A stretch of DNA of 64,000 nt, from NCBI GenBank assembly GCA_028691975.1, contig JAQUYF010000002.1, positions 1 to 64,000 on the forward strand, given 5' to 3'. The notes under the pieces are model-generated. The model did not search any database. It saw nothing but the letters and a program-made list of their open reading frames with translations, and was not told the DNA's origin. Source of the DNA: Bacteroidales bacterium. GTDB lineage: Bacteria > Bacteroidota > Bacteroidia > Bacteroidales > UBA932. Shown here piece by piece: positions 2,457 to 18,646 of the stretch. Numbering within the stretch: position 1 is the first letter of the stretch; every line of letters starts with the position of its first letter. A program made the position numbers and the translations under genes.

Positions 2457-2821
2457 TAGTGACCGCAGTTATGGTGTTCATGATCGTGATTACATGTACC
2501 TTCGAGAATTGATAAAGCACCATCAATAAAGGCTTCCACCAATTTGCGAGGCTCTGAGGTTCCTATTCCGGCATAGATCGAGATTGACTCCTTAGCAAAG
2601 AGGTCTTTGGCTTTTCCGCCGATTCCTCCGGCAATGACAACAGTCGCTCCTTGTTGTTTTACCCATGCGGGATAAACTCCCGGTTGATGCTCCGGAGGGG
2701 TGATTGTTTCTTCTTTTACGATTTCTCCGTTTTCAATCTCTGCAAAATAAAATTGTTCGCAATGGCCGAAATGGGCGCATAAAAGCCCTCCTTCGACAGG
2801 GATAGCTATCTTCTTATTCAT
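2456..2821 (-). CDS. NifX/NifB/orange-protein-like (dinitrogenase Fe-Mo cofactor family) protein
   Basis: MNKKIAIPVEGGLLCAHFGHCEQF; His-rich C-terminus NHDHEHHNCGH. Start reset from 2911 because the 2911 frame overlaps the DUF5320 ORF. Confidence 0.85.
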   Translation of the reverse strand: MNKKIAIPVEGGLLCAHFGHCEQFYFAEIENGEIVKEETITPPEHQPGVYPAWVKQQGATVVIAGGIGGKAKDLFAKESISIYAGIGTSEPRKLVEAFIDGALSILEGTCNHDHEHHNCGH

Positions 2822-3029
2822 TGTTCCCTGTATTTGCAGTGCCGGCACATTTTCCCAAACCACGACCTTGGGCTCTGCCTTGTCCCATTCCGCGACCCTG
2901 TCCTTGTCCACGACCTTTGCCGCAACATTCGCGACTTTGACCCGATTGATTACCCGTAGAGTTTCCTCTCATTCTTCTTCCTTGTCCTGAACCATTTCCA
3001 TTTGGCCCTGTTCCATCAAAATTTGGCAT
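2814..3029 (-). CDS. DUF5320-like Gly/Arg-rich small protein
   Basis: N-terminal MPNFDGTGPNGNGSGQGRR signature and GRGQGQGRGMGQGR repeats. Confidence 0.75.
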   Translation of the reverse strand: MPNFDGTGPNGNGSGQGRRMRGNSTGNQSGQSRECCGKGRGQGQGRGMGQGRAQGRGLGKCAGTANTGNNE

Positions 3030-3040
3030 AATTGTAATTT

Positions 3041-3358
3041 TTAGTTGTTAAACATTTCGATTATTTCGCTTACGCGTTTTTCAGATTCTTTGTTGGCTAT
3101 CATTTCGACCCCCAACTCTTCGAGCAATGGTCTGATCTTTACACCAAACTCGCCCGATACTATTTTTTGTACTCCTTGTGCCGCAACAAACTTTACCGCA
3201 GCAGGCCCGGCACCTTCTTCTGCCTCCGCAGCAGGATTTTTCAGGAAGTTGTGCAACTTGGTTTCCGTATCATAGATCAGAAACCATGCACAACGTCCGA
3301 AGCGGGCATCTATCATGCTATCCATAGTGTTACCCGTACTCGTAATTGCTATTTTCAT
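3041..3358 (-). CDS. NifX/orange-protein-like (dinitrogenase Fe-Mo cofactor family) protein
   Basis: MKIAITSTGNTMDSMIDARFGRCAWFLIYD. Confidence 0.85.
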   Translation of the reverse strand: MKIAITSTGNTMDSMIDARFGRCAWFLIYDTETKLHNFLKNPAAEAEEGAGPAAVKFVAAQGVQKIVSGEFGVKIRPLLEELGVEMIANKESEKRVSEIIEMFNN

Positions 3359-3398
3359 ATAATTATCTATTAATGATTCTTTGCAAATGTAGCAATAA

Positions 3399-3412
3399 TG
3401 AACATATGTTCA
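3399..3412. promoter_or_regulatory. Palindromic operator candidate TGAACATATGTTCA (site 1, divergent promoters)
   Basis: Perfect 14-bp palindrome. -7-like TACTTTTG at 3424-3431 (+) and TACATTTG at 3391-3384 (-). Confidence 0.7.
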
Positions 3413-3492
3413 AAATAAATAATTACTTTTGTGAAACAAATAGTTTGATTGGTTTGTTTTTTGATAGTATAATCAGTTAAATCACTAAAAAA

Positions 3493-4209
3493 ATGATAGA
3501 CATGGAAACAACACAGGTTTATGGGATGCCACGCATCGGTGATGCGGCACCGGAATTTAAAGCGGTAACAACTCAGGGAGATATTAATTTTCCGAGTGAT
3601 TACAAAGGGAAATGGGCTATATTATTCAGTCACCCGGCAGACTTCACGCCGGTTTGCACATCTGAGTTTATGACTTTTGCTTCAATGAGTAAAGATTTTG
3701 AAGCTCTGAATTGCCAATTGGTTGGATTATCGGTAGACGGTCTATACAGCCACATTGCATGGCTTCGGACAATCAAAGAGAAGATTGAATACAAGGGAAT
3801 GAAAAATGTAGAGGTAACATTCCCGTTAATCGAAGACATCACAATGGAGGTTGCGAAAAAATACGGTATGTTGCAACCGGGTGAAAGTGCAACAAAAGCA
3901 GTGAGAGCAGTATTTTTTGTAGATCCTAAAGGCATTATTCGAGCTGTCATTTACTATCCGCTATCGCTGGGTCGTAACTTCGACGAGATTAAACGTGTTC
4001 TTATTGCCCTGCAAACTGCCGATAATTTTGGTGTGGCTACACCTGCCGACTGGCGTCCGGGCGATGATGTAATTGTTCCTACGGCAGGTTCATGCGGAGT
4101 GGCAAAAGAGAGAATGGAAGGACTTCAGGAGGGCGTTACCTGCTACGACTGGTTTTTCTGTACGAAGAAATTACCAAAAGAAGAGGTTGAAAAGAAGCTT
4201 GGTAAATAA
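3493..4209 (+). CDS. Peroxiredoxin (Prx6/archaeal-type AhpC/TSA family)
   Basis: FSHPADFTPVCTSEF active site; C-terminal GSCGVAKERMEGLQEGVTCYDWFFCTK. Confidence 0.92.
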   Translation: MIDMETTQVYGMPRIGDAAPEFKAVTTQGDINFPSDYKGKWAILFSHPADFTPVCTSEFMTFASMSKDFEALNCQLVGLSVDGLYSHIAWLRTIKEKIEYKGMKNVEVTFPLIEDITMEVAKKYGMLQPGESATKAVRAVFFVDPKGIIRAVIYYPLSLGRNFDEIKRVLIALQTADNFGVATPADWRPGDDVIVPTAGSCGVAKERMEGLQEGVTCYDWFFCTKKLPKEEVEKKLGK

Positions 4210-4269
4210 TTTTTATTGCATTAAAAGAACGGGAATTGAAAAATTCCCGATTTTCATATAAAGGCATTG

Positions 4270-4698
4270 TTACTTGCCGTTTATCTTTATTTCATAGGTT
4301 ACTGGTGCCGATTTCGACAACATTGCAGATACGCCGCAATACCTTTCGTGTGAGAGGGCTACCGCTTTTTGAATCTTCTCCGCTTCCGCTTCAAGACCTT
4401 TGCCCTCAAAACGGAATATGATTTTGAAAAATTCATAAACATAAGGGTGCTCATCTTCGGTTTGTGAAGATTCGACTTCTACCGAAAATTTTTCTACCTC
4501 TACACGCATTTTTTTAAGAATCGATACTATATCCATACTTGTGCAACCACCCAGAGCTACAAGCAGTAGTTTCTTAGGACGCGGCCCTGCGTTGTTTCCG
4601 CCGACAGTGGCATCGGCATCAAGCGGTATTATATGACCATCCACTTCCGCATCGAAAGCCATTCCGCCTTTCCAGTTAAGTTCTGCATTTACTTTCAT
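4270..4698 (-). CDS. OsmC/Ohr family protein
   Basis: GPRPKKLLLVALGGCTSMDIVSIL and SHERYCGVSAMLSKSAPVTYEI. Confidence 0.88.
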   Translation of the reverse strand: MKVNAELNWKGGMAFDAEVDGHIIPLDADATVGGNNAGPRPKKLLLVALGGCTSMDIVSILKKMRVEVEKFSVEVESSQTEDEHPYVYEFFKIIFRFEGKGLEAEAEKIQKAVALSHERYCGVSAMLSKSAPVTYEIKINGK

Positions 4699-4756
4699 AT
4701 CTATATTTTTTATGGTTTAATCATTTATGTGTTCTGCAAAATTCATTCCTTAGAAG

Positions 4757-5821
4757 CTACACCTTTAGAACTTTAGGTTCTTTAGGAGCTCCGAGATATT
4801 CCATTTTTCCGCCAAGATATTTTGCATGGGGATCGTATTCAATACCTATTTTATCCAGTAGCGATTCTACGCTGACCTGATGCAGCTGCATCCCCATTTC
4901 CCACGGGTCTAAACCCAATATCAAGCCTGCCATCTCTTCATATGTCAGTACAGGTATGCCGTATCCGTTTTCCCCATACGTTATGCCCTCGGCTTCGGCA
5001 AGCACATACTGCCAGCGGTCGAGAAAGAATGTGCAACCGGGACAATTCGTAACGATAAAATCGGGTTGATAAGGCTTCATTGAGTCAAACTTCAATTTGC
5101 TGTTCGACAAAGGATAAGCCCTGTTCTCTTTCACGATATAGTTACGAAAACCGAATCCACAACAATGGCGGCGTTCGGGGTAATCTACAACCTCTCCTCC
5201 CCAAGCCTCAATCATTCCGGTTAAAACTTTGGGGAACTCTGCTCCGCCAACGCCTTTGCTCGGAAATATTTTTGCATAATGACAACCTACATGATCGACC
5301 ACTTTCAACGGTTCACCTGTTTCTTTGTTAATCAGTCTGTATTTTGCTTTGGCAGCTATTTCGTTCCTGAATTTATAAATTATATCGCTCGTATGGACAA
5401 GGTTTTCGGGTTGCTCAAACTCCCGTCCGGTTGATGAGTGTAACTGTTTTCGCGTATTATCCAACGTTTCCGGGAAGTGTTTCCACGCATCTTCCATTTC
5501 CGTATATATACCGAACGATGTTACGCATGAGGGTATAAAATTCCTGTATCCCGCATCATTCATCAACGAATACTGACGCGCAACGACAGTCATCGTAGTT
5601 TCTATCGGTACGATTCCCGAATGGTATGCAATGCCGGTACAGGTAGTCTGGTGCGGATCGTCATAAACGTTTTTACCCAACACCTCCCGAAGTATGCGTA
5701 AGAATGTTTCTTCGGAACCGGGAAAGAAATTCTGCCTTATACAGCTTCGCGCATAGTAGTAATCATCTTCGGCAATCTCTTTCTGGTAGTCCTGCCATTT
5801 ACGGTTATTATTCTTGTTCAT
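4757..5821 (-). CDS. Heterodisulfide reductase subunit B-like (CCG domain) protein
   Basis: C-terminal CCG domain: GCHYAKIF...RRHCCGFGF...TNCPGC. Start reset to ATG at 5821, overlapping the end of the HdrC-like ORF. Confidence 0.85.
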   Translation of the reverse strand: MNKNNNRKWQDYQKEIAEDDYYYARSCIRQNFFPGSEETFLRILREVLGKNVYDDPHQTTCTGIAYHSGIVPIETTMTVVARQYSLMNDAGYRNFIPSCVTSFGIYTEMEDAWKHFPETLDNTRKQLHSSTGREFEQPENLVHTSDIIYKFRNEIAAKAKYRLINKETGEPLKVVDHVGCHYAKIFPSKGVGGAEFPKVLTGMIEAWGGEVVDYPERRHCCGFGFRNYIVKENRAYPLSNSKLKFDSMKPYQPDFIVTNCPGCTFFLDRWQYVLAEAEGITYGENGYGIPVLTYEEMAGLILGLDPWEMGMQLHQVSVESLLDKIGIEYDPHAKYLGGKMEYLGAPKEPKVLKV

Positions 5822-6431
5822 TTGCAATCCATTTTTCAATCGTTTCAAAACGTTCCATCGCTCCTGTTTCCTCGAAGATAGCTCGAAGTTCCGCCATATC
5901 TTCTTCGGCAATGCGGCGCATCGAGCCGGAACCCTCTCCGTCATAATTCGCTCCGATGCGGCGTGATATGGTTGCTGTATGTTTACGAAACCAATCCCAT
6001 ACAGGGCCTTGTTCGGGGTGATAGTCTGTTTCCACATCGTCCACGTAAACACAATATCCTCTTTTGAGCATCGTATCGCCAATGATGCGTTTTACCTCTA
6101 ATTGTTGTCGTCCTAAACGTGATTGAGCAAATAGACCTCGTTGCTGAGAAAGCTGACGCAATGCCTGAATAACGTAACCGGGCGTATTTCCTCGCGGGCA
6201 ACGGGTTTTACATGAAAGACACTCTCCGCAATACCATATCGTATCGCTTTTGAGCAGCTGATCAATCTTCTCTTCATCGCCCTGTTGGACGGTCAGCATT
6301 ATATCACGTGGACTATATTGATAGAACTGCGCCGCAGGACATACAGCTGTGCATACTCCGCAACTGATACACGCTTTCAAACCTTCAATAAAGCGTAAAT
6401 CCTGTTTCAGTTCATCAATTATCTTTGACAT
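5808..6431 (-). CDS. Heterodisulfide reductase subunit C-like 4Fe-4S protein
   Basis: CISCGVCTAVCPAAQF and CGECLSCKTRCPRGNTP. Confidence 0.9.
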   Translation of the reverse strand: MSKIIDELKQDLRFIEGLKACISCGVCTAVCPAAQFYQYSPRDIMLTVQQGDEEKIDQLLKSDTIWYCGECLSCKTRCPRGNTPGYVIQALRQLSQQRGLFAQSRLGRQQLEVKRIIGDTMLKRGYCVYVDDVETDYHPEQGPVWDWFRKHTATISRRIGANYDGEGSGSMRRIAEEDMAELRAIFEETGAMERFETIEKWIANEQE

Positions 6432-7233
6432 AATAAAATCTCTTTGTTGAAGAGAAAGTTACCACTTTCTCTGCCAAAGCATGGAATGCCTTTCCGGTTA
6501 TTGAGTCGGAATCCATGCTTACCGGCTCACCTGCATCACCGCTCTCGCTTATACCTTGAACGACAGGTATTCTTTCCAATAATTCAAGTCCCTCTTCCTT
6601 TGCGAATTTTTCGCAATTTTCCTTACCGAAAATAAAGTATTTCTCATCGGGATGTTGTTCAGGAGTGAACCATGCCATATTTTCGACAAGTCCGAGGATC
6701 GGGATATGAATATCTTTATTTCGGAACATATTCAGCCCTTTAATTGCCGAAGCCAATGCGACCTGTTGCGGTGTGCTGACGATTATCGCTCCGTTTACAT
6801 GGAGTTCATTGATTAACGTGATATGTATGTCGCCCGTTCCCGGAGGAAGGTCGATCAATAGAAAATCCAACTCACCCCATTGACCCTGATTCATCAATTG
6901 CTTCAAGGCGTTGGATGCCATCGGGCCGCGCCAGATTGCAGGATCTTTTGCAGGTAGAAAAAACCCGATAGACAGTATCTTGACTCCGTGTTGTTCGATA
7001 GGGATTATGCGTTCTTCTCCTTGTGTTCCGGTCACTCCGGGCTGCTCCCCTTCAACTCCCATCATTTTTGGGATAGAAGGCCCGTATATATCTGCATCGA
7101 GTAGTCCTACCTTGTACCCTTGTTTAGCCAGCGCTACGGCTAAATTTGCGGTTACGGTAGACTTACCGACACCGCCTTTACCGGATGCTACTGCTATTAC
7201 ATGCTTTACTCCGGGTATTTTTTGTGTTTGCAT
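6415..7233 (-). CDS. mrp: Mrp/NBP35/ApbC-family P-loop ATPase
   Basis: VASGKGGVGKSTVTANLAVALA; DLPPGTGDIHITL. Confidence 0.92.
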   Translation of the reverse strand: MQTQKIPGVKHVIAVASGKGGVGKSTVTANLAVALAKQGYKVGLLDADIYGPSIPKMMGVEGEQPGVTGTQGEERIIPIEQHGVKILSIGFFLPAKDPAIWRGPMASNALKQLMNQGQWGELDFLLIDLPPGTGDIHITLINELHVNGAIIVSTPQQVALASAIKGLNMFRNKDIHIPILGLVENMAWFTPEQHPDEKYFIFGKENCEKFAKEEGLELLERIPVVQGISESGDAGEPVSMDSDSITGKAFHALAEKVVTFSSTKRFYYVKDN

Positions 7234-7244
7234 TACTGTATATG

Positions 7245-7574
7245 TTAATGTGTATAATCAAGAATCAGAATGTCATCTCCGATTAGTCGGCGAATGGATG
7301 CTATCATATTTTCCCTGTTCGGGCAAGGAAACCCTATCGGATTACCTTTAGTAATACACGAAGCAAGAACAATTACTTCCGCTCCGCGATCTACCATCAG
7401 CTTTGCTCTGATTGCCGCTCGTTTGCCTGGACAACCACCGCACGAAATAAAACCGATTACCTCCGATGGGCCGATCTCTGCAAATGCAAGTTTACCTTCT
7501 TTTGCAACTTTAAAATCTGTGTTGCCCGGACACATATCTTCGGTCTGCTGGCAACGAATTATACCTACTTTCAT
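7245..7574 (-). CDS. CGGC-domain protein (putative metal-binding)
   Basis: MKVGIIRCQQTEDMCPG; GFISCGGCPGKRA. Confidence 0.8.
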   Translation of the reverse strand: MKVGIIRCQQTEDMCPGNTDFKVAKEGKLAFAEIGPSEVIGFISCGGCPGKRAAIRAKLMVDRGAEVIVLASCITKGNPIGFPCPNRENMIASIRRLIGDDILILDYTH

Positions 7575-7582
7575 ACTGATTA

Positions 7583-7864
7583 TTATTTCATTTTAAGTCG
7601 TCGTTTAACCTGAAAGAATCTGTAAATACCTACTATAAGGAAGCCGAAACTTACTGCAAAGGCGATATATCCGGCAAATTCCAAATGTTTGAAAAATTCT
7701 ATTTCAGTAAGCCCTAAACCTGCCATCAACATGTATAATGATGCTCTTATATAAGACAGAAAAGTCCGTTCATTTGCAAGTTTAGTTCGTTCAATCGCTA
7801 AATAATCTCTTAGAATTAACTCAGAGCTATCGTTATAAAATGGTTTTTGAGATTTTGTCGGCAT
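7583..7864 (-). CDS. DUF202-family membrane protein
   Basis: LAIERTKLANERTFLSYIRASL signature plus two TM segments. Confidence 0.85.
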   Translation of the reverse strand: MPTKSQKPFYNDSSELILRDYLAIERTKLANERTFLSYIRASLYMLMAGLGLTEIEFFKHLEFAGYIAFAVSFGFLIVGIYRFFQVKRRLKMK

Positions 7865-7901
7865 ACTATTATTTATTTGACGTACAAATATACTATATTT
7901 A

Positions 7902-7915
7902 TGAACAAATGTTCA
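7902..7915. promoter_or_regulatory. Palindromic operator candidate TGAACAAATGTTCA (site 2, divergent promoters)
   Basis: -7-like TACTTCTG at 7926-7933 (+) and TATATTTG at 7892-7885 (-). Confidence 0.7.
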
Positions 7916-7944
7916 ATATTATTCTTACTTCTGCAAAAATTTCA

Positions 7945-8340
7945 ATGATGGAAGAACAAATATTGCGAAGCGAAACACGACAATTCAAAGCCATATTCCC
8001 CAATACGTTAAACGCGAATGAAACCCTTTTCGGCGGACAGGCAATGAAGTGGATGGACGAAGTGGCCTATATTACGGCAACCAGATTCACACGTCAGAAA
8101 ATGTTCACGGTCAATACCGAAAATATATACTTTCTGAAAACCGTACATCCAAATTCCATAGTAGAAATTGTTGGGAAAATTGAAAAAGCCGGAGCGGTTA
8201 AATTGAGAGTTAAGGTTGAGATATATGCCGAAGAAATGTACGGACAGAATCGGGAAAAAGTAGTAGAAAGCGTATTTGTTTTCGCAGCTCTGGATGATAA
8301 TATGAAGCCCAAACGCATCGACTACTCAAATATAAAATAA
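7945..8340 (+). CDS. Acyl-CoA thioesterase (hotdog fold, YciA/BFIT-like)
   Basis: NTLNANETLFGGQAMKWMDEVAYITATR. Start ATG 7945 or 7948, downstream of the site-2 promoter. Confidence 0.85.
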   Translation: MMEEQILRSETRQFKAIFPNTLNANETLFGGQAMKWMDEVAYITATRFTRQKMFTVNTENIYFLKTVHPNSIVEIVGKIEKAGAVKLRVKVEIYAEEMYGQNREKVVESVFVFAALDDNMKPKRIDYSNIK

Positions 8341-8410
8341 CATTCAGGCATAAGATTATTGATTTAATGCTGTCTAATAATGCAGTAATAAATTCAGCGA
8401 TTATCATAAG

Positions 8411-10810
8411 ATGAAAAAAACAGCAAAATTTTCAGCATTTATACTATTTATTTTTCTTGGTTCACTTCCCTTGACATCTTTTAGTCAAAGTAGACCCTAT
8501 TCTGTAACCGGAAAATTGTTGGATGCGGAAACAAAACAGCCGATTGAATACGCTTCGGTTGCAATTTTCAAACTTCCCGACAGTACTCTTGTTACGGGTG
8601 TTTCAACCAATGGGCAGGGTGTGTTTACAATTAACAACTTGGGTAACGGTAGGTATTTTCTCAGATCCAGCTTTGTGGGCTACAAGAATGGAATAAAACA
8701 ATTTGAAATTAACGGCTCAAATGTAAAACTGACAGAGCCGATTCATCTACAGCCTGCCGCATTGTCCATAGGCGAAGTCACCGTAACCGGAACAAGAAGC
8801 GAGAAACAACAGAGCGTAGAAAAAACAACCATAAATGTCGCTAAAAACATTGCGGCTGTTTCCGGAAATATTACTGATGTATTGAAAGGTCAAGCCGGAA
8901 TAAATATCGACAACGAAGAAAACATCTATGTAAGAGGTAATAAAAATACGTTGGTTTTGATGGACGGAGTTCCCACTACATTATCCTCCCTCAATTCGAT
9001 TCCTGCATCCAATGTCGAGAATATCGAGATAATTACGAATCCTGATGTAAAATACGATGCGGAAGGTACAGGCGGTATCATCAATATCGTAACCAAACGC
9101 AGAGGCGAAGCAGGTTTCAGTGGGCGAGTAATGTTGAATTACAATTTCGGCAATTCGGTGAACGGCGGCTTAAATCTTCATTACTCTAAGGGAATATGGG
9201 ATTTCGATTTCGGATATAATGGCAAATATGACAAATATGATATAAACAGCACGCTTGACCGATTTCTTTATTCGGATGAAATTCGTGTCCAACAGGAGAT
9301 GCTTTCTCGTCAATTAAGCACATCACATACAGGAACATTCATGATGGCTGTCAGACCATCAAAGAAAGATGTTATTTCGCTTGGACTTAAAGGCGTTTTA
9401 CCTGAGTTGCATAATAAACAGTCAATTATAGGTACACAAACCGACAATACGAATACTGTTACACATTTCAACCGTTTGAACGACATTGATCATTTGAGGC
9501 GAATGTTTGAAACAACATTCTCATACAAGCATATCTTTGAAAAAGGCAAACACGAGCTCTCTTTCGATGCATCTTACTCCAGAAATCGCGGACGCCGCCC
9601 TGCCGAATATTATATCGAAGATATTTTATTGCAGAAATCTACCGGAGGTGGCGATCCTACCAATATGGCAGTACAGGCCGACTATCTGAAATCGGTATCA
9701 AAAACAGGGAAAATTGAGTTTGGACTGAAAGGGCTCTCTAAATACAATAATTTTGATTATAAATTCTATGATCTGAATACGGGAACGGATGAATGGATAT
9801 TAGACCCCGCATTTAGTAACGATCTGAAATATCAGGAGTATATATACTCTTCCTATCTTATGTATTCGGACAAACTGTCAAAGAAGCTGGAGTATAAAAT
9901 TGGTGCAAGGTTGGAGTATAACACATCGGAACTTACTCAGGCATCATCAAATGAACGCATATACCATGAATACTGGTTCCCTTTTCCGTTCGCTCAACTC
10001 AAATATACGTTAGATGATTCTCAAAATATCGCATTGAGCATAAATCGCCGCATAACACGTCCGACATACCCACAGATCAATCCATTTATCAGTGTAGTCG
10101 ATCAAACAACTTATGAAACAGGAAACAAGCACCTTGTTCCCGAAATACAAGACAAGGTGGAGCTGAATTATTCACTGATTAAAAACAGCTTCCAACTTCG
10201 TACAAATTTGTTTGCAAGTATATCAAAAGATTATATAACACAGGTTTCCATGCTATCGGATGCTGACAAGTTGATGCTGACATACGTCAACGGTAGCCGT
10301 CAGAATAAAATTGGCGCAGATTTGGACATTACATACAAATTCAATAAATATATATCTGTAAATCCTGCATTCTCTGTGTTTCATACACGCTCGACAGGAC
10401 AATACAACGAGATTGATTTAAGTACAGACGACTTTGCATGGACTGGTAGTTTGAAAACTACAATAAAGCCCGAAAAGAGAACGGAAGTACAGATTTTCCT
10501 GAATTACAATTCTCCGTTATCACTACCACAATTTCGTTTAGGGGAAATATACTACGCCGACATTTCCGTAAGACGCTCGTTTCTTGACAATAAACTTTCA
10601 GTCAGTCTGACAATGACCGATGTTTTTAATACTCGCAAATGGAATATAGAATCGGACAATGCGGTTTATAAGTTGGATAACTACAGTAAAAACCAAACTC
10701 GTATGGTATGGCTGGGGCTAACATTCAATTTCAATTCTTATAAGGCAAACAAACCGCAGAAAAGCGGAGATGGAGAAATTGACAATCGCATAATTAAATT
10801 AGGAGATTAA
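8411..10810 (+). CDS. TonB-dependent receptor / outer-membrane beta-barrel protein with CarboxypepD-reg-like N-domain
   Basis: Signal peptide; GKLLDAETKQPIEYASVAIF; plug NIDNEENIYVRGNKNTLVLMDGVPT; long barrel. Confidence 0.88.
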   Translation: MKKTAKFSAFILFIFLGSLPLTSFSQSRPYSVTGKLLDAETKQPIEYASVAIFKLPDSTLVTGVSTNGQGVFTINNLGNGRYFLRSSFVGYKNGIKQFEINGSNVKLTEPIHLQPAALSIGEVTVTGTRSEKQQSVEKTTINVAKNIAAVSGNITDVLKGQAGINIDNEENIYVRGNKNTLVLMDGVPTTLSSLNSIPASNVENIEIITNPDVKYDAEGTGGIINIVTKRRGEAGFSGRVMLNYNFGNSVNGGLNLHYSKGIWDFDFGYNGKYDKYDINSTLDRFLYSDEIRVQQEMLSRQLSTSHTGTFMMAVRPSKKDVISLGLKGVLPELHNKQSIIGTQTDNTNTVTHFNRLNDIDHLRRMFETTFSYKHIFEKGKHELSFDASYSRNRGRRPAEYYIEDILLQKSTGGGDPTNMAVQADYLKSVSKTGKIEFGLKGLSKYNNFDYKFYDLNTGTDEWILDPAFSNDLKYQEYIYSSYLMYSDKLSKKLEYKIGARLEYNTSELTQASSNERIYHEYWFPFPFAQLKYTLDDSQNIALSINRRITRPTYPQINPFISVVDQTTYETGNKHLVPEIQDKVELNYSLIKNSFQLRTNLFASISKDYITQVSMLSDADKLMLTYVNGSRQNKIGADLDITYKFNKYISVNPAFSVFHTRSTGQYNEIDLSTDDFAWTGSLKTTIKPEKRTEVQIFLNYNSPLSLPQFRLGEIYYADISVRRSFLDNKLSVSLTMTDVFNTRKWNIESDNAVYKLDNYSKNQTRMVWLGLTFNFNSYKANKPQKSGDGEIDNRIIKLGD

Positions 10811-10883
10811 TAAGCAGATTATCAATACAGAAACAGTGCCTAAATATTTATTATTCAGCACTGTTTTCTGTTTTCTGAATGTT

Positions 10884-10916
10884 ATTTTCTATTGGACATT
10901 TCTTCCATTGGAAAAT
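10884..10916. promoter_or_regulatory. Imperfect inverted repeat ATTTTCTATTGGA-N7-TCCATTGGAAAAT upstream of a -7-like TATCTTTG (10923-10930)
   Basis: 11 of 13 arm positions complementary; adjacent to a Bacteroidota-type -7 element. Confidence 0.5.
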
Positions 10917-10970
10917 AATACATATCTTTGTGCGTTATAAATTCACAAAATAGAGAAAATAGAGTTTAAT

Positions 10971-11192
10971 ATGGATAAAATCATTGTTTTAATCAAGCGA
11001 AACTGGCTCACCTTGCTTGGGGTTGTGGTCGGAATAATAGGCGGATTTTTGTATTGGAGATTTGTTGGATGCAGCAGCGGTAGCTGCCCGATTACATCCT
11101 CTCCGACAATGAGTGCGTTGTGGGGCGCAATGATGGGCGGTTTAGTATTCAGTTCATTTAAAAAAGAGAAAAATGAGAAAATATCTAAATAA
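10971..11192 (+). CDS. Small membrane protein (DUF6132-like)
   Basis: Two TM segments; GCSSGSCPITSSPTMSALWGAMMGGLVF. Confidence 0.65.
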   Translation: MDKIIVLIKRNWLTLLGVVVGIIGGFLYWRFVGCSSGSCPITSSPTMSALWGAMMGGLVFSSFKKEKNEKISK

Positions 11193-11409
11193 TTGGGATG
11201 CCGTGCGTATCATTCGCCTGCTGGCAGGCGTAGGCTTTGGAATATATGCCGTAGTGTCAAAAGAGTACTTGTTTTTGATGTTGGCGGGAATGTTTCTTTT
11301 ACAAAGTATATTCAATGTCTCGTGCTGCGGAGCGGGCGGGTGCTCAACCGAACCAAAGAAAACGAAAACACAGGTATATAAAGATCAGATAGAGCAATAT
11401 AAAGGATGA
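11173..11409 (+). CDS. Small Cys-containing membrane protein (DUF2892-like)
   Basis: RIIRLLAGVGFGIYAVVSKEYLFLMLAGMFLLQSIFNVSCCGAGGCS. Confidence 0.6.
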   Translation: MRKYLNNWDAVRIIRLLAGVGFGIYAVVSKEYLFLMLAGMFLLQSIFNVSCCGAGGCSTEPKKTKTQVYKDQIEQYKG

Positions 11410-11870
11410 AAAAGATAGGAATACTTTTACTGCTTATGGCAGGAGTGATCTCTTGTGGCAGACAACCGAAACAGACAAACAGCATTAATCAAAAACAAGA
11501 AAATAATATGAAAACGATTCAATTAACGAAAGTAGATTTTTTAACAAAAGTAGCTAACTATGAAGCAAATCCGCAGGAGTGGAAGTATTTGGGTGACAAG
11601 CCGGCAATAATTGACTTCTATGCGTCATGGTGCGGCCCATGCAAGACTATTGCACCTGTTTTAGAAGAACTTGCCGCTGAATATGGCGATCAAATATATA
11701 TCTATAAAATAGATACTGAAGCAGAACAAGAGTTGGCAGCAGCATTTGGCATTCGTTCGATTCCTTCTATTCTGTTCGTTCCGATGGATGGTGCTCCGCA
11801 AATGGCACAAGGAGCCATGCCTAAGGCTTCATTCAAGGAGGCGATAGACAAAGTCTTACTCAATAAATAA
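11406..11870 (+). CDS. Thioredoxin-family lipoprotein
   Basis: Lipobox-like VISCG; FYASWCGPCKTIAPVLEELA. Confidence 0.93.
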   Translation: MKKIGILLLLMAGVISCGRQPKQTNSINQKQENNMKTIQLTKVDFLTKVANYEANPQEWKYLGDKPAIIDFYASWCGPCKTIAPVLEELAAEYGDQIYIYKIDTEAEQELAAAFGIRSIPSILFVPMDGAPQMAQGAMPKASFKEAIDKVLLNK

Positions 11871-11877
11871 ACGAAAA

Positions 11878-12060
11878 ATGGCTTTAACAGTAGATAAAAA
11901 CAGATGTCCTCAGAACCATAAATGCCCTATGTTGAGAGTATGTCCGGTAGATGCAATTACTCAGGATGGCTACGGATTGCCAAGAATCGACCCGGAAAAA
12001 TGTATCGAATGCGGTAAATGCACTAAGTATTGTCCTATGGGCGCAGTAAAGAAAAACTAA
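11878..12060 (+). CDS. 4Fe-4S ferredoxin-like protein
   Basis: CPQNHKCPMLRVCPVDAI and CIECGKCTKYCPMGAV. Confidence 0.88.
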   Translation: MALTVDKNRCPQNHKCPMLRVCPVDAITQDGYGLPRIDPEKCIECGKCTKYCPMGAVKKN

Positions 12061-12067
12061 TCGAATT

Positions 12068-12421
12068 ATGGAAGCATTATGTAGAATTAGAGATATATTT
12101 CGTTCTATCAACGATTTTGAAATTCATTTCCAGTCAAAATACAGCATAGGGCTTAATGAAGGTATGTTATTGTGTACTATTTCTAAATTTGAGAAATGTT
12201 CTTCGGGAGAAATAGCGGAAATTCTCGGGCTTTCATCATCGAACTCTTCAAAAGTAATTGCCTCGGTAGAAAAGAAGGGTTTCATCAAGCGCAAGATCGG
12301 CAAGGATGATAAACGCAAAATGTACTTTACTCTTACCGAAAAAGGTATAGAGTGTTTGAAATTTATCAAATGTGATTCTGATGATGTCTTGAGAATTATA
12401 GATAAGATTAGAGAAATTTAA
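12068..12421 (+). CDS. MarR-family winged-helix transcriptional regulator
   Basis: SSGEIAEILGLSSSNSSKVIASVEKKGFIKRKIGKDDKRKMYFTLTEKG. Confidence 0.85.
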   Translation: MEALCRIRDIFRSINDFEIHFQSKYSIGLNEGMLLCTISKFEKCSSGEIAEILGLSSSNSSKVIASVEKKGFIKRKIGKDDKRKMYFTLTEKGIECLKFIKCDSDDVLRIIDKIREI

Positions 12422-12516
12422 AAATGACAACTACAATGCTGTCGCTAAATCCGGAGCAAAGTCTTATGTAAGTTGCGCAATCGGACGAATGAGTAAATAA
12501 ACTTATGGTAAATATC

Positions 12517-12545
12517 AAAAAGCTACGAATATTTGTAGCTTTTTT
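12517..12545 (+). terminator. Rho-independent terminator
   Basis: AAAAAGCTAC-gaatattt-GTAGCTTTTTTG. Confidence 0.7.
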
Positions 12546-12597
12546 GTTTACACCTCTATAAAAAGGTAATAAATAATTATATTTGCCATCACAATTA

Positions 12598-12611
12598 TCA
12601 ACATATGTTCA
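12598..12611. promoter_or_regulatory. Operator candidate TCAACATATGTTCA (site 3)
   Basis: One mismatch to the TGAACAnnTGTTCA palindrome; lies 12 nt downstream of -7-like TATATTTG (12578-12585). Confidence 0.55.
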
Positions 12612-12626
12612 AAACTGATTAAATTA

Positions 12627-15080
12627 ATGAAACACATCATCATTGGCGGAGTAGCAGGCTGAGCTACTGCCGCAGCACGTATCCGTCGAGCTGATGAATC
12701 GGCAGAGATCATTCTTCTCGAAAAAGGCAAATATATATCATATGCAAACTGCGGATTGCCGTATTACATTGGCGGAACTATTGCAGAACGCGAAAAATTG
12801 TTCCTGCAAACACCCCAATCGTTTGGTGGTCGATTCAATGTTGATGTTCGTATTGAAAACGAGGTTATTGGAATTGACTCAACTGCAAAATCTGTTAAAA
12901 TTCGCAAAGCTGACGGTACGGAATACTCTGAAAATTACGACAAACTTTTATTGTCGCCCGGAGCGAATCCCGTTTGTCCGCCATTGGGAGGAATTGACTT
13001 GGATGGTATTTTTACGCTGCGCGATGTCAATGACACGGATAAAATCAAGAATTACATTACGACACACGAGGTAAAGCAAGCAGTCGTAGTCGGGGCGGGT
13101 TTCATCGGACTGGAAATGGCCGAAAATCTCCAACATGCCGGAGCTGCTGTCTCTATTGTCGAGATGGGCAATCAGGTGATGGCTCCCATTGATTTTTCGA
13201 TGGCTGCGCAAGTTCATCAACACTTACTGCAAAAAGGAGTTGCACTGTATCTTGAACAGAGCGTAGAGCGATTTTCAAAAAATGGGAACCGATTAGATGT
13301 TCATTTCAAAAGCGGTGAAACAATCCCTGCCGATATTGTAATCCTATCAATAGGCGTGCGTCCTGAAACAACACTTGCGAAAGCCGCCGGACTTAAAATA
13401 GGCGAAACAGGCGGAATATGGGTGGATGAATATTTCGAAACCTCTGCAAAGGATATATATGCTGTGGGCGATGCCGTTGAATTTCCGCATCCGTTGACAG
13501 GCAAACCGTGGCTTAACTATCTGGCAAATCCTGCCAACCGTCAGGGGCGTATTGTTGCCGACAATATGGTTTCAGGTAACATCACGAAATATGAAGGTGC
13601 GATTGGTACTTGCATCGCTAAGGTTTTCGATATGACCGTTGCTGCGACAGGACTTGCTGCCAAACGCCTCAAACAAATGGAAATTCCTTACCGCAGTTCG
13701 TGGACACATTCGGGTTCGCACGCAGGATATTATCCCGATGCGTTGCCATTAAGCTTGAAGATTACGTTCGACCTGCAGACTGGGAAACTTCTGGGCGGAC
13801 AATGTGTCGGTTATGACGGTGTGGATAAACGTATTGACCAAATCGCACTGCTTATCAAAAATGGCGGAACAATTTACGATCTTATTAAAGTAGAACACGC
13901 CTATGCACCGCCATTCTCATCGGCAAAAGATCCGATTGCAATTGCGGGATATGTTGCAAGTAACATAATCAGTGGCGTAATGCCTGCTATGACATGGCGA
14001 GAGATGCAAAACGCTAACCGTGATGAAGTTGTGATTCTTGATGTCCGCACAAAAGATGAATGTGCTATGGGAATGATCCCTGGAGCTGTGAATATTCCGG
14101 TGGATGAGTTGCGTGGCAGACTCAGTAAAATCCCGACCGATAAACCGATACTTATCTATTGTGCGATCGGATTGCGCGGATACCTTACTACGAAAATTCT
14201 CGTGGCGAACGGCTATACGAATGTAAAAAATCTATCGGGCGGTTACAAGACCTACTCTACGGCGGTGGCTCCGGTTAAACGCACCGAGCCTACGGTCGTA
14301 GCACCGGCTTGTAAAACAGATAATATCGACCAGCAAATTGCGAAAATGGAGATTAAAACAGTTAAAATAGATGCCTGCGGATTGGCTTGTCCCGGCCCTG
14401 TGATGAAGATTAAACAAGCTATCGACTCTATTGGCGAAGGAGAACGTATCGAAATGGTTGCCACCGATGTCGGTTTTGCCCGTGATGCTCAGGCATGGTG
14501 CAATACTACGGGGAATCAACTCATATCCAATACGGAAGAGAAGGGCAAATTCACGGTCGTGATCGAAAAAGGCTCGTCTAAAGCCTGCAAAACTATCACT
14601 TCGTGCGATGGAAAAGGCAAAACATTGATAATGTTCAGCGATGACCTTGATAAAGCATTGGCTACTTTTGTACTTGCCAACGGCGCCGTCGCGACTGGGC
14701 AAAAAGTAACGATCTTCTTTACCTTCTGGGGGTTGAACGTCATCAAAAAAGTGAAGAAACCCAAAGTTGAAAAAGATATTTTCGGAAAAATGTTCGGCAT
14801 GATGCTGCCGTCGAGTTCGCTGAAACTGAAGCTCTCGAAGATGCACATGATGGGAATAGGCAGCCGCATGATGCGCTCGATTATGAAGCGTCACGGCATT
14901 GACTCACTGGAGTCACTTCGTGATCAGGCGATTGCCAACGGCGTGGAATTTATCGCCTGCCAGATGTCAATGGATGTGATGGGCGTAAAACGTGAAGAGC
15001 TGCTCGATCATGCAACCATAGGCGGCGTAGCAACTTACATGGAACGCGCCGATGATGCCAATGTAAACCTGTTTATATAA
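12627..15080 (+). pseudogene. CoA-disulfide reductase-type flavoprotein fused to rhodanese, TusA and DsrE-like domains; in-frame TGA at 12660-12662
   Basis: ATG 12627 reads MKHIIIGGVAG*ATAAARIRRADESAEIILLEKGKYISYANCGLPYYIGG and joins the 12756 ORF in frame. Domains: pyridine nucleotide-disulfide oxidoreductase, rhodanese (YCAIGLRGY), TusA (CGLACPGPVMK), DsrE-like C-terminus. Confidence 0.85.
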
Positions 15081-15102
15081 TTGGATAACAATATTATATC
15101 GC

Positions 15103-15135
15103 AAGCCTCCCTATCGAATCGGGGGGCTTTTTTTG
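15103..15135 (+). terminator. Rho-independent terminator
   Basis: AAGCCTCCC-tatcgaatc-GGGGGGCTTTTTTT. Confidence 0.75.
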
Positions 15136-15155
15136 TTGATTAACCCTCTTGTATG

Positions 15156-15169
15156 TGAACATTTGTTCA
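15156..15169. promoter_or_regulatory. Palindromic operator candidate TGAACATTTGTTCA (site 4)
   Basis: 10 nt upstream of -7-like TATTTTTG (15180-15187). Confidence 0.68.
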
Positions 15170-15233
15170 ATATAATGATTATTTTTGCAACCAAGCAATA
15201 AGATTTTCATCAAAATTGTGATCTAACTTCTAT

Positions 15234-15776
15234 ATGGAAAAAAAGACGGAAAACAGAATCAATATTACCGAAGTGGTGGAGAAATACCATCCTATGGTTT
15301 TCCGTATAGCTGTTGGATTTGTCCATATCCGTGAAGATGCCGAAGATATTACACAGGAGGTTTTTATTAAGATTTATCAAAACCAAGATAAATTTCGCGG
15401 AGAATCGGAAATATCGACGTGGCTATACCGCATCACGGTTAATACTTCTCTCAATTTTATTGCTCAAAAGAAACGCAGGAGCTTTTTACAGTTTGGTGAT
15501 GAATTATTGAAAAACTTATTCGGCAAAGCCGATGAACGTAAAAATCCGCAGCAGGAACTTGAAGAGGCGGAGGAAAAAGCAGAAATACGAAAAGTGATAG
15601 ATTCACTTCCCGAAAAGCAACGTATTGCGTTTGTTTTGACAAGATATGATGAGCTTCCACAAAAAGAAGTTGCCGAAATCATGCAGATTTCTCAACGCGC
15701 GGTAGAACAGCTATTATTGAGGGCAAAAGCGAATCTCAACAAAAAACTCTCATCAGCCATAAGAAACCGTAAATAA
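15234..15776 (+). CDS. ECF RNA polymerase sigma factor
   Basis: EDAEDITQEVFIKIYQN; STWLYRITVNTSLNF; LPQKEVAEIMQISQRAVEQLLLRAKANL. Confidence 0.92.
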   Translation: MEKKTENRINITEVVEKYHPMVFRIAVGFVHIREDAEDITQEVFIKIYQNQDKFRGESEISTWLYRITVNTSLNFIAQKKRRSFLQFGDELLKNLFGKADERKNPQQELEEAEEKAEIRKVIDSLPEKQRIAFVLTRYDELPQKEVAEIMQISQRAVEQLLLRAKANLNKKLSSAIRNRK

Positions 15777-15798
15777 GATTTGTCTAAAGAATAGAAAT

Positions 15799-16098
15799 AT
15801 GAAAATGGAAAAGATCGACAAATACATTGAAGACGAAAAAGCGATAACACCATCGCCATTTCTGGAGAGCAGAATTTTAGCCCGTATCGAAAATCTTGAA
15901 AGGGAACAAATTCCAATGCCGAAAAGGGCAAGATTATGGCCGAGTGTTGCTGTTGTTGCGGGCATTGCAATTATCGCTTTTACTGGTATTAAAATCGGCA
16001 GTACATACAAGAATCCTTCGCCCAATTATGCAGGACTTATTGTAAACGACAATTATATAGAACAACTATCAATATATACGGCAGATGATAACGAATAA
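15799..16098 (+). CDS. Single-pass membrane protein, putative anti-sigma factor
   Basis: Immediately downstream of ECF sigma; one TM segment. Confidence 0.5.
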   Translation: MKMEKIDKYIEDEKAITPSPFLESRILARIENLEREQIPMPKRARLWPSVAVVAGIAIIAFTGIKIGSTYKNPSPNYAGLIVNDNYIEQLSIYTADDNE

Positions 16099-16618
16099 AA
16101 CTAAAATACTTTGGATCGTAATTACTTTTCTTGCCGTGCTGAATATAGCTACAATAGCTACGATTATATACAATAACAGGCAAGTAAAAACGGAGGATGA
16201 AAATATTGTTTTTGAGCCTGACACTCAACCCCTAAATGGTATGTATTTCAAACAGACATTGGGTTTTGACAATCATCAAATGGAGGTGTTCAGACAAAGT
16301 AGCCGAGCATTTCGGCAAAATGCAAATCAAATCATCGGTTCAATAAACCGATCTAAAGAAGAGCTTTTTATTGAACTTCAGGCGGAACAACCGGATACGG
16401 TAAGATTGAAGGAAATATCTAAAGAGATAGGTGTGTTACATGCAGAATTAAAGGATGCAACAGTAAATTTTTATCTGGAATTAAATTCGGTATGCAATCC
16501 TGAACAAAAGAATAAACTAAAAACTGTATTTGTGCCTCTTTTCAGAGAAACTCCATTGCAAGGAGGGCATGGAGGTAATAACGGGCGAGGTCATGGTCGC
16601 AGAAACAGAAATTTTTAA
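16085..16618 (+). CDS. CpxP/Spy-like periplasmic protein
   Basis: N-terminal TM; helical region FKQTLGFDNHQMEVFRQSSRAFRQNANQIIGSINRSKEELF; Gly/Arg-rich tail. Confidence 0.6.
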   Translation: MITNKTKILWIVITFLAVLNIATIATIIYNNRQVKTEDENIVFEPDTQPLNGMYFKQTLGFDNHQMEVFRQSSRAFRQNANQIIGSINRSKEELFIELQAEQPDTVRLKEISKEIGVLHAELKDATVNFYLELNSVCNPEQKNKLKTVFVPLFRETPLQGGHGGNNGRGHGRRNRNF

Positions 16619-16647
16619 ACCAGTATAAACATTAATAAATTTTAGTC

Positions 16648-17055
16648 ATGAAAAAGAAACTGATTTTATCATTATTTGCATTAATTGCAACAATTGGTAT
16701 TGCTTCGGCACAGAATACTCAAACAAAAAGTCAAACGCAAACTACACAAACACGCCGGACTTGTTTTGTTGATGCCAACAATAACGGGGTGTGCGATAGT
16801 TATGAGAATGGAACTTGCAAGGTAGGTAATGGGAAAGGTCTGCAAGACGGAAGCGGTAGAGGACAGGGATTACGCAACGGAAGTGGACGAAGAGGCGGTG
16901 GGAATCAAGCCATAGGACAAGGTAGAGGACGTGGTGGAAACGCAGGGCAAGGATTACGTAATGGCAGTGGTCGTGGTAACGGAGGACGCGCAGCCAATTT
17001 CGTCGATGCGAATAACAATGGTATCTGCGATCGCAGGGAAACAACCACGAAATAA
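16648..17055 (+). CDS. Secreted Gly/Arg-rich protein with two FVDANNNGxCD motifs
   Basis: Signal peptide; FVDANNNGVCDSYENG and FVDANNNGICDRRE flank Gly-rich repeats. Confidence 0.7.
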   Translation: MKKKLILSLFALIATIGIASAQNTQTKSQTQTTQTRRTCFVDANNNGVCDSYENGTCKVGNGKGLQDGSGRGQGLRNGSGRRGGGNQAIGQGRGRGGNAGQGLRNGSGRGNGGRAANFVDANNNGICDRRETTTK

Positions 17056-17100
17056 TTGATAACTATTTTTGCGATTTTTAAACTATCGAAAAATATTCCC

Positions 17101-17132
17101 AAAGGGCACTACAGAATGAAGTGCCTTTTTTA
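17101..17132. terminator. Terminator hairpin between convergent genes
   Basis: AAAGGGCACT...AAGTGCCTTTTTT. Confidence 0.6.
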
Positions 17133-17951
17133 TATTTCTATTATAAATCCGCTGTAAAAAGAGATAAATTTCTCGCCGAGTGTTTCCGATAAGATTTTTT
17201 GAGCATTTATTCCTGTGCAATGACCGGTAATAAGTTTCATTTGTGGATATAATGACTTGATTTTATATGCTATTTCAGTAAGCTGCTCGTCTGTTTCATA
17301 TTTATTTTCTGCATCGGAGTCAATCAAGTGTGTTCCTCCGATATATGCGTACAAATCCTGACATTGGCAAGCCGAAAGCGTGTTCAGTATGCCCAAATGC
17401 GTACATGCCGAAAGAACTATGTCTCCTTGAGGCGTATCGATACATAATGCCATTTCATGCAGGAAATCGTCCGGCAAATCGTTTACAAGCAATGTCCGGT
17501 TCGCTTTCGGCGTGCCGAATAATACAGGAATATTACAGTGCAACATTACACTCTCAGATAGTCGTATATCTGTATCGACCAAGACAAACCGTTCGGGATT
17601 ATTTTCTACAATGGAATAATCCGGTGAAATATCTCGTTTCGACCCTCTGCGTGTGGAATAATAATAATTTCCTGCAATGTGAGATGAGATAAATATTTTT
17701 GCTTTACTGTTCTGTTTGATGAAATTTGCCAATCCGCCTGTATGATCTCGGTGGGCATGAGATAACACCAAACAATCAATATCTGCAATGCTTATACCTA
17801 ATCTCGCGGCATTGTCTTCAAACTTACCGGAGGCACCAACATCCATTAACCATTTGCGATTATCGACCTCAAAATAGATACTTAATCCATGTTCTGTTTG
17901 TAAATCCGTATGAGGATTAGGTGTATTGTCTATGAGAATAACCACCCTCAT
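17130..17951 (-). CDS. MBL-fold metallo-hydrolase (COG1237-like)
   Basis: LSHAHRDHTGGL; DVGASGKFEDNAARLGI; ITGHCTG. Start reset to ATG 17951 (ATGA overlap with the upstream frame). Confidence 0.85.
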   Translation of the reverse strand: MRVVILIDNTPNPHTDLQTEHGLSIYFEVDNRKWLMDVGASGKFEDNAARLGISIADIDCLVLSHAHRDHTGGLANFIKQNSKAKIFISSHIAGNYYYSTRRGSKRDISPDYSIVENNPERFVLVDTDIRLSESVMLHCNIPVLFGTPKANRTLLVNDLPDDFLHEMALCIDTPQGDIVLSACTHLGILNTLSACQCQDLYAYIGGTHLIDSDAENKYETDEQLTEIAYKIKSLYPQMKLITGHCTGINAQKILSETLGEKFISFYSGFIIEI

Positions 17952-18523
17952 TTCTTCCCCTGACTTTTCAGGTATAGCTGATGGTGATAACACCCTTTAC
18001 GCATCATTTTTGAACCGCATTTCGGACATTGATGCTCTTTACATGGCTTCCCTTTCTCGTGCGGGATTTCTGTATCGCATTGAACGCAAATACATATACC
18101 GCCCTCACAATCCATATCTTTGCAACAACGGGTTAAACTATGAAGATTTTTTGAAAGACAATGATTGCAGGTATCTGTTTATTCTTTGGAAACAATTACC
18201 TGACTGCAATCTTCACAACGATACCAGTGATCGTCCGAATAAAAATCACCTCCCTTTATAATAATCGCTTTCCCTTCCACGAATGCCTGAGCAATAGTTT
18301 TACGAGCTTTCTCGTATATGCGCGTAAAAGTAGGGCGAGAAACATTCATTCTCTCGGCTGCCTGCTCTTGTGTTAAGCCTTCGTAATCTGTCAGCTTAAT
18401 TGATTCATATTCTTCAAAGAGAAGTTCAATCGGCTCTACATCCGTAATCGGCACACCGAAAGGTCTGAACCCTTCGACCACAGGCGGAGTCGCCATCATT
18501 CTTCTTCTTTTTGGTCTGGGCAT
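17948..18523 (-). pseudogene. DUF134/UPF0251 DNA-binding protein with Cys-rich C-terminal extension, interrupted by TAA at 18179-18181
   Basis: MPRPKRRRMMATPPVVEGFRPFG...GLTQEQAAERMNVSRPTFTRIYEKARKTIAQAF...WYRCEDCSQVIVSKE*TDTCNHCLSKNLHSLTRCCKDMDCEGGICICVQCDTEIPHEKGKPCKEHQCPKCGSKMMRKGCYHHQLYLKSQGKK*. Confidence 0.75.
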
Positions 18524-18632
18524 ATTTACGCTTATTAGTTTTACATCACAAATATAGTTAAAGCCGAATGCAAACAAATGGGATTTGAATTGCTGAGGCA
18601 CATCCTATATTATGCAAATATACAACTATTAA

Positions 18633-18646
18633 TGAACAAATGTTTA
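18633..18646. promoter_or_regulatory. Operator candidate TGAACAAATGTTTA (site 5)
   Basis: One mismatch; on the minus strand lies 10 nt upstream of -7-like TATATTTG. Confidence 0.6.

Follow-up and report, generated by a model that had tools for sequence, protein, structure and literature searches.

The DUF134/UPF0251 family (PF02001, COG1342, PRK04217) carries no annotation beyond that of a domain of unknown function, and in the open literature, subscription journals lying outside our coverage, we found no operator, target or function for it and no report of the motif strings described below. Two better-described systems provide points of comparison: Bacillus subtilis DeoR, whose base contacts fall on 5'-TTGAACA-3' in ATTGAACAAAATTTCAAT (PMC11229326), and Desulfovibrio vulgaris, where sigma-54 controls the two divergent orp operons (PMC6345978). 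Here we analyze a 64,000-nucleotide stretch, hereafter the window (contig JAQUYF010000002.1, assembly GCA_028691975.1, positions 1 to 64,000), from the genome of a Bacteroidales bacterium (2.01 Mb, 106 contigs, ~87% complete), in which an island containing a DUF134 gene carries five copies of a palindrome with the consensus TWATGAACAWWTGTTCATWA and the core TGAAC-N4-GTTCA. We propose with considerable confidence, from the sequences compared, that this palindrome is the operator of DUF134, which would likely act as a repressor of its own gene and of further units of the island, relieved by a signal. Comparison supplies the identity of the motif, its family-wide link to DUF134, the co-occurrence of genes, the joint change of helix and half-site and the promoter geometry; binding, dimerization, the sign of regulation and the signal are what we infer.

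Five palindromes and their linkage to DUF134 genes

The first-pass annotation of the window had placed palindromes at 3399, 7902, 12598, 15156 and 18633; all five are present, and on sequence grounds they are regulatory sites. They are listed here as putative operators, with their ranks in a scan by a position weight matrix (PWM), which was trained on 71 sites from other genomes, the window genome contributing none, and which gave the above consensus.

3399..3412, no strand: operator 1, TGAACATATGTTCA, between the divergent ORP-like operon (-) and Prx6 (+); rank 1
7902..7915, no strand: operator 2, TGAACAAATGTTCA, between the DUF202-CGGC-Mrp-HdrC-HdrB operon (-) and the thioesterase-TonB unit (+); rank 2
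12598..12611, no strand: operator 3, TCAACATATGTTCA, at the CoA-disulfide reductase (CoADR) gene; rank 4
15156..15169, no strand: operator 4, TGAACATTTGTTCA, ahead of the extracytoplasmic function (ECF)-sigma unit; rank 3
18633..18646, no strand: operator 5, TGAACAAATGTTTA, ahead of the DUF134 gene, a candidate autoregulatory site; one mismatch, rank 5, score 18.6

On the 64 kb window these five sites occupied ranks 1-5 of the PWM scan (scores 31.0, 27.3, 23.4, 22.6 and 18.6) with the next match scoring 7.5, and twenty Markov-2 simulated windows gave one match at the lowest score. Genome-wide, the exact 12-of-14 pattern (TGAACAnnTGTTCA / TGAACANNTGTTCA) has three copies, all of them in the window (3399, 7902 and 15156); the pattern read backwards, used as a control, has none. 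Allowing one mismatch adds 12598, 18633, C5:4820, C13:13959 (within a gene) and C43:65, and the wider pattern TGAACNNNNGTTCA yields one extra site, also within a gene. At up to two mismatches the window holds 9 matches against 4.1 expected, the four besides the five sites being degenerate. In the genome scan called for by the first-pass annotation the density of the motif was thus not random, and the motif was kept upstream of orthologous operons; its proposal of an island regulon under one common operator is supported.

In relatives from three different families of the order, exact motifs were found directly ahead of DUF134 genes. This led us to collect 80 DUF134 loci from named genomes, and the comparison as a whole took in more than 100 other genomes. 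An unbiased scan of all 5-N-5 palindromes in the 300 nucleotides (nt) upstream of 79 DUF134 genes recovered TGAAC-N4-GTTCA as the commonest (40 of the 79, versus 3 in control stretches), and an exact site lies within 100 nt of the DUF134 start in 30/79 cases versus 2/1178 control stretches. In 18 of these DUF134-containing genomes, 3-8 Mb in size, we counted 0-2 copies of the exact 12-mer pattern per genome, most of them at the DUF134 locus. The window conforms to this picture, the site that had been noted upstream of its own DUF134 gene being present at 18633-18646 with one mismatch. Sequence evidence of this kind indicates that the palindrome is very probably bound by DUF134, and the candidacy of DUF134 as regulator, raised in the first-pass annotation, draws support from the motif upstream of DUF134 genes, the shared partner genes, their co-occurrence and the change of half-site along with the helix.

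The DUF134 protein, its recognition helix and the half-site

The DUF134 gene of the window has the following extent:

18182..18523, - strand: DUF134 (UPF0251) regulator of 114 residues with the recognition helix SRPTFTR; PF02001 E-value 9e-25

The protein scores 87.6 bits against the PF02001 profile (curated cut-off 27). Its AlphaFold model is confident at residues 31-90 (block pLDDT, the predicted local distance difference test, 82-97), with helices at 36-47, 52-58 and 63-83, and can be overlaid at 0.5-0.8 A over 39-50 columns both on sigma region 4 domains and on 7bhy, the DNA-binding domain of DeoR. Foldseek likewise returned sigma region 4 and DeoR domains, all at E-values above 0.01 (7bhy: E 0.15, probability 1.00), a PDB sequence search returned DeoR alone, near threshold, and hhalign aligned DUF134 with the DeoR domain (probability 97.2, E 5e-11), pairing SRPTFTR with SRPTVSR. 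The Pfam match is to sigma region 4 only, with none to region 2, and no Pfam match to a C-terminal phosphosugar/effector-binding domain was obtained for the window protein or for those of loci L054, L081 and L095. In L081 and L095 a Nitro_FeMo-Co (NifX/ORP) domain is instead fused C-terminally to DUF134, and this could possibly serve as a built-in metal-sulfur cluster sensor. DUF134 proteins of 283-322 residues are seen in L081, L082, L095 and L101, and the long forms have a conserved CxxC...CxxC C-terminal extension. The window gene ends at a TAA (18179-18181, -) after 114 codons, beyond which lies an in-frame Cys-rich remnant (TDTCNHC...ICICVQC...CPKCGSKM) resembling the C-terminus of the long DUF134s; its helix-turn-helix (HTH) is intact despite the stop, and the DUF134s of congeners are naturally short. 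Among 297 genomes sampled from the phylum of the window, 76 have a member above the family cut-off; the family is also present in archaeal control genomes and occurs on 189 plasmid records, many of them from Klebsiella and Citrobacter.

The half-site was found to change with the recognition helix. Members with an SRPT(F/L/Y)(T/S)R helix (T/S-type) have TGAAC sites or none (46 TGAAC : 0 TGAGC), and those with a G-type helix have TGAGC sites or none (0 TGAAC : 10 TGAGC). The TGAGC-N4-GCTCA form was predicted from two G-type loci; nine further genomes, each encoding an SRATFGR helix, then proved to carry it within ~40 nt of the start of the DUF134 domain. A one-residue helix code was considered and given up, as was the rule that all G-type members go with TGAGC: the latter holds for SRATFGR (9/9) and one SRPTFGR locus, most Chlorobia-like genes having neither motif. 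Exact TGAGCANNTGCTCA matches in Chlorobia-like genomes are scattered. Of the G-type loci, L178 shows TGAGCATACGCTCA and L172 two GCATATGC repeats at the gene start.

Plasmid-borne DUF134s of other phyla keep the 5-4-5 spacing, with TTGACATATGTCAA in Roseburia and Selenomonas, TTGACAAATGTCAG in Treponema and ATGGCATATGCCAA-like sites in Gammaproteobacteria, and these palindromes are 85-fold denser within 150 nt of the DUF134 start than elsewhere. The gammaproteobacterial sites belong to DUF134 operons that include NifX and, in many cases, a PaaI thioesterase. In the enterobacterial and Aeromonadales plasmid loci L211 and L213-L216, TGGCATATGCCA-like palindromes lie upstream of DUF134-NifX operons followed by a PaaI thioesterase in 4/5. 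On the Selenomonas plasmid pSRC1 (L208, near 2034) a TTGACATATGTCTA site stands ~70 nt upstream of the Mrp/NBP35 gene preceding DUF134, which suggests, from its position, that the Clostridia-type operator may also govern Mrp. Extending the proposal beyond the window, we lean modestly towards viewing the DUF134 proteins as cross-phylum autoregulating repressors with a readable code, namely a palindrome of fixed 5-4-5 layout whose centre is A/T-rich and whose half-site (TGAAC, TGAGC, TTGAC or TGGC) tracks the recognition helix. Such repressors would govern ORP/NifX-Mrp, thioesterase and peroxiredoxin/persulfide genes, and would use NifX or Cys-rich C-terminal domains to sense a signal from sulfur or a metal cluster.

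Promoter geometry, predicted regulon and alternative readings

The promoter layout described in the first-pass annotation, with a TAnnTTTG-like -7 element 7-11 nt from the sites at 3399, 7902, 15156 and 18633, and on both sides at the divergent 3399 and 7902, was recovered, as was the placement of site 12598 downstream of its -7 element. The elements, as read from the sequence, are:

3424..3431, + strand: -7 element TACTTTTG of Prx6, 11 nt from operator 1
3384..3391, - strand: -7 element TACATTTG of the ORP-like operon, 7 nt from operator 1
7926..7933, + strand: -7-like element TACTTCTG, one base off, 10 nt from operator 2
7885..7892, - strand: -7 element TATATTTG, 9 nt from operator 2
12578-12585: -7 element TATATTTG of the CoADR gene; operator 3 lies 12 nt downstream
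15180-15187: -7 element TATTTTTG of the ECF-sigma unit; operator 4 lies 10 nt upstream
18622-18615, - strand: -7 element TATATTTG of the DUF134 gene; operator 5 lies 10 nt upstream

Among 55 sites upstream of DUF134 genes TAnnTTTG (background 0.0023 per position) begins either 1 nt (23 sites) or 9-11 nt (14 sites) downstream of the site, the two spacing classes differing by about one helical turn. In the ~10-nt class the operator covers the -33 region, where no obvious TTTG is seen; in the other it fits between the likely -33 and -7 elements. Of the TGAGC operators, 8/10 begin 11 nt past the first base of the -7 element, approximately at the transcription start. By analogy, we envisage a DUF134 dimer placing one subunit on each TGAAC half-site, with operators situated between the -33 and -7 elements, over -33 or just downstream of -7. 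Given these positions bound DUF134 should exclude RNA polymerase, and the most likely outcome is therefore repression of the DUF134 gene and of the island units.

The units of the island are as follows, with operators 1 to 5 placed among them as above:

746..3358, - strand: ORP-like operon, with two P-loop ATPase-ferredoxin proteins (MrpA, MrpB), two Nitro_FeMo-Co (NifX/ORP-type) proteins and DUF5320
3493..4209, + strand: 1-Cys type peroxiredoxin (Prx6; NCBIfam PRK13189)
4270..4698, - strand: OsmC family protein
4757..7864, - strand: DUF202, CGGC, Mrp/NBP35, HdrC and HdrB genes
7942..8340, + strand: 4HBT thioesterase
8411..10810, + strand: TonB-dependent outer-membrane receptor
12068-12421: MarR protein
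12627..15080, + strand: CoADR fused to rhodanese, TusA and DsrE domains
15234..17055, + strand: ECF-sigma unit, with an ECF sigma factor, a short protein without Pfam match, a weak Metal_resist match and a DUF6520 protein
17130..17993, - strand: metallo-beta-lactamase-fold (MBL) hydrolase, downstream of DUF134

The CoADR frame has an in-frame TGA at codon 12 (12660-12662, +), near the glycine-rich nucleotide-binding motif (MKHIIIGGVAG*ATAAARIRRADES), and is then open to 15080. The frame of a tyrosine recombinase (18862-19947, -) stops just past HTARHR, its catalytic end seemingly lost, which suggests a decayed integrase at the island edge.

Much of this gene set recurs next to sites elsewhere. 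In the DUF134 loci the genes adjoining sites include DUF134 (53, with 9.0 expected), 4HBT (12, being 12 of the 19 4HBT genes in other genomes, with 1.7 expected), Prx6 (5; 1.9), MBL (4; 1.5) and NifX2 (3; 1.7), and CoADR is also among them. Locus L061 has a divergent 4HBT gene and outer-membrane receptor flanking a site, the same layout as at operator 2; in L174 an MBL-CGGC-4HBT unit has its own site more than 10 kb from DUF134; and in L162 a site precedes Prx6-DUF134-NifX2-NifX-MrpB-MrpA. The set of NifX/ORP-type proteins and Mrp-ferredoxin ATPases stands beside DUF134 in L086, L089, L103, L161 and L162. Genus-wide, Prx6 is found in exactly the five genomes with an above-cut-off DUF134 (G000, G012, G014, G017 and G020) and in 0/32 others, and all five have a site upstream of Prx6, the congeners carrying TGAACAAAGGTTCA before the orthologous gene. 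The Prx6 orthologues of the DUF134-less G050 and G056 (74-75% identical) lack the site, as does that of G059, whose DUF134 has another helix type. The 4HBT gene occurs within the genus in the window genome only.

Based on these observations we predict that DUF134 would target itself, the ORP-like NifX/Mrp operon, peroxiredoxin/OsmC, the DUF202-CGGC-Mrp-Hdr and thioesterase-TonB units, the CoADR fusion, which resembles persulfide reductases, the ECF-sigma unit and MBL. Derepression would probably follow a sulfur (sulfane sulfur), redox or metal-cluster signal, because the targets comprise CoADR-rhodanese-TusA-DsrE, peroxiredoxin, OsmC, MBL, Hdr and Mrp/ORP, and because relatives have a NifX fusion or CxxC...CxxC. 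The DUF134 regulon would then be best read as an ORP/Mrp-thiol-sulfur stress response.

Several observations weigh against this proposal. Among the five window sites the weakest is operator 5, the one belonging to the DUF134 gene, and the window's DUF134 is cut by a stop ahead of its Cys-rich end. No exact site lies within 300 nt of the start of 45/91 T/S-type DUF134 genes, some of which carry one at the head of the operon instead, and the Chlorobia-like members (SRQTFGR/SRPTFGR) mostly have no recognizable palindrome. A Parabacteroides plasmid DUF134 combines an SRPTLSR helix with TGAGC half-sites, which breaks the one-residue code, and the Fisher value of 3e-11 for the helix/operator link overstates independence, since the nine SRATFGR genomes come from two families only. 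Exact intergenic motifs also exist in some genomes without DUF134: G054 has an exact TGAACAAATGTTCA situated ~0.1 kb ahead of a MarR gene that is accompanied by an efflux gene (L010).

This last site bears on the improbable reading that the island MarR (12068-12421) or another local regulator binds the sites, DUF134 being merely a target. MarR proteins do bind palindromes of similar length, and L035 has a site flanked on one side by a MarR-CoADR pair and on the other by a NifX gene. However, DUF134 is common to sites across many families while the other neighbours vary, only one of the 1560 genes of the loci examined is a MarR gene adjoining a site as against the 53 DUF134 genes, and the half-site changes along with the DUF134 helix. 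Pattern and PWM scans agreed that the MarR operon of the window has no site, as had been noted, and the suggestion of MarR as regulator finds no backing. LexA (SOS) boxes of the Firmicutes GAAC-N4-GTTC type, a form that the core fits and that the first-pass annotation had raised, are a still more improbable explanation. The one LexA-DNA-binding match above cut-off in this ~87% complete genome is weak and lies in a 375-residue frame, not LexA-sized; the outer half-site position is T/A (flanks TTA...TAA), not C/G as for LexA; and the genes at the sites are sulfur/redox/ORP genes here and DUF134, 4HBT, Prx6, MBL and NifX in relatives. No box was found at DNA-repair genes, exact TGAAC-N4-GTTCA being restricted genome-wide to three island promoters and one intragenic site, and the LexA suggestion is not supported. 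ArsR/SmtB regulators use 12-2-12 operators; no ArsR gene was noted beside the sites, although no search aimed at it was made.

Of all readings, an effect of chance or sequence composition is the hardest to credit: the motif is short and A+T-rich, but its three exact copies in 2 Mb all fall within 12 kb, the independent PWM ranks the five sites first and they are kept at orthologous operons. A more serious contender, albeit an unlikely one, is that DUF134 binds the sites as an activator or dual regulator, which would suit its relationship to sigma region 4, a -35-binding domain, and the ~10-nt class, where the operator covers the -33 region and no obvious TTTG is seen there. Against this, the operators of the other class between the likely -33 and -7 elements, and the TGAGC operators around the transcription start (8/10), occupy typical repressor positions. 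With DUF134 as repressor, naming its operator turns a widespread family of unknown function into a regulator with a concrete, testable job. The regulon would join ORP/Mrp metal-cluster proteins with a thioesterase, peroxiredoxin and persulfide-type enzymes, and its inducer becomes directly approachable by experiment.

Comparison with known systems

Within its own family the window protein is a clear member with a sigma-4-like HTH, its relatives including NifX-domain fusions. The core GAAC-N4-GTTC is alike in Firmicutes LexA boxes, but the outer bases and target genes differ and no LexA-sized protein was found in the ~87% complete window genome. The resemblance to B. subtilis DeoR, of the SorC family, extends from the helix, SRPTVSR aligning with the SRPTFTR of DUF134, to the operator, ATTGAACAAAATTTCAAT sharing a TGAA-N6-TTCA frame with the DUF134 palindrome (PMC11229326). 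The two differ in that DeoR has a 39-bp two-part operator and a C-terminal effector-binding domain, whereas DUF134 has one 14-bp palindrome and no match to such a domain, with Nitro_FeMo-Co in its stead in L081 and L095. The Desulfovibrio ORP operons bring together NifX/ORP-type proteins and Mrp-ferredoxin ATPases in one operon, as does the window at 746-3358; unlike in D. vulgaris, the ORP-like operon of the window has the palindrome overlapping an ordinary Bacteroidota-type promoter.

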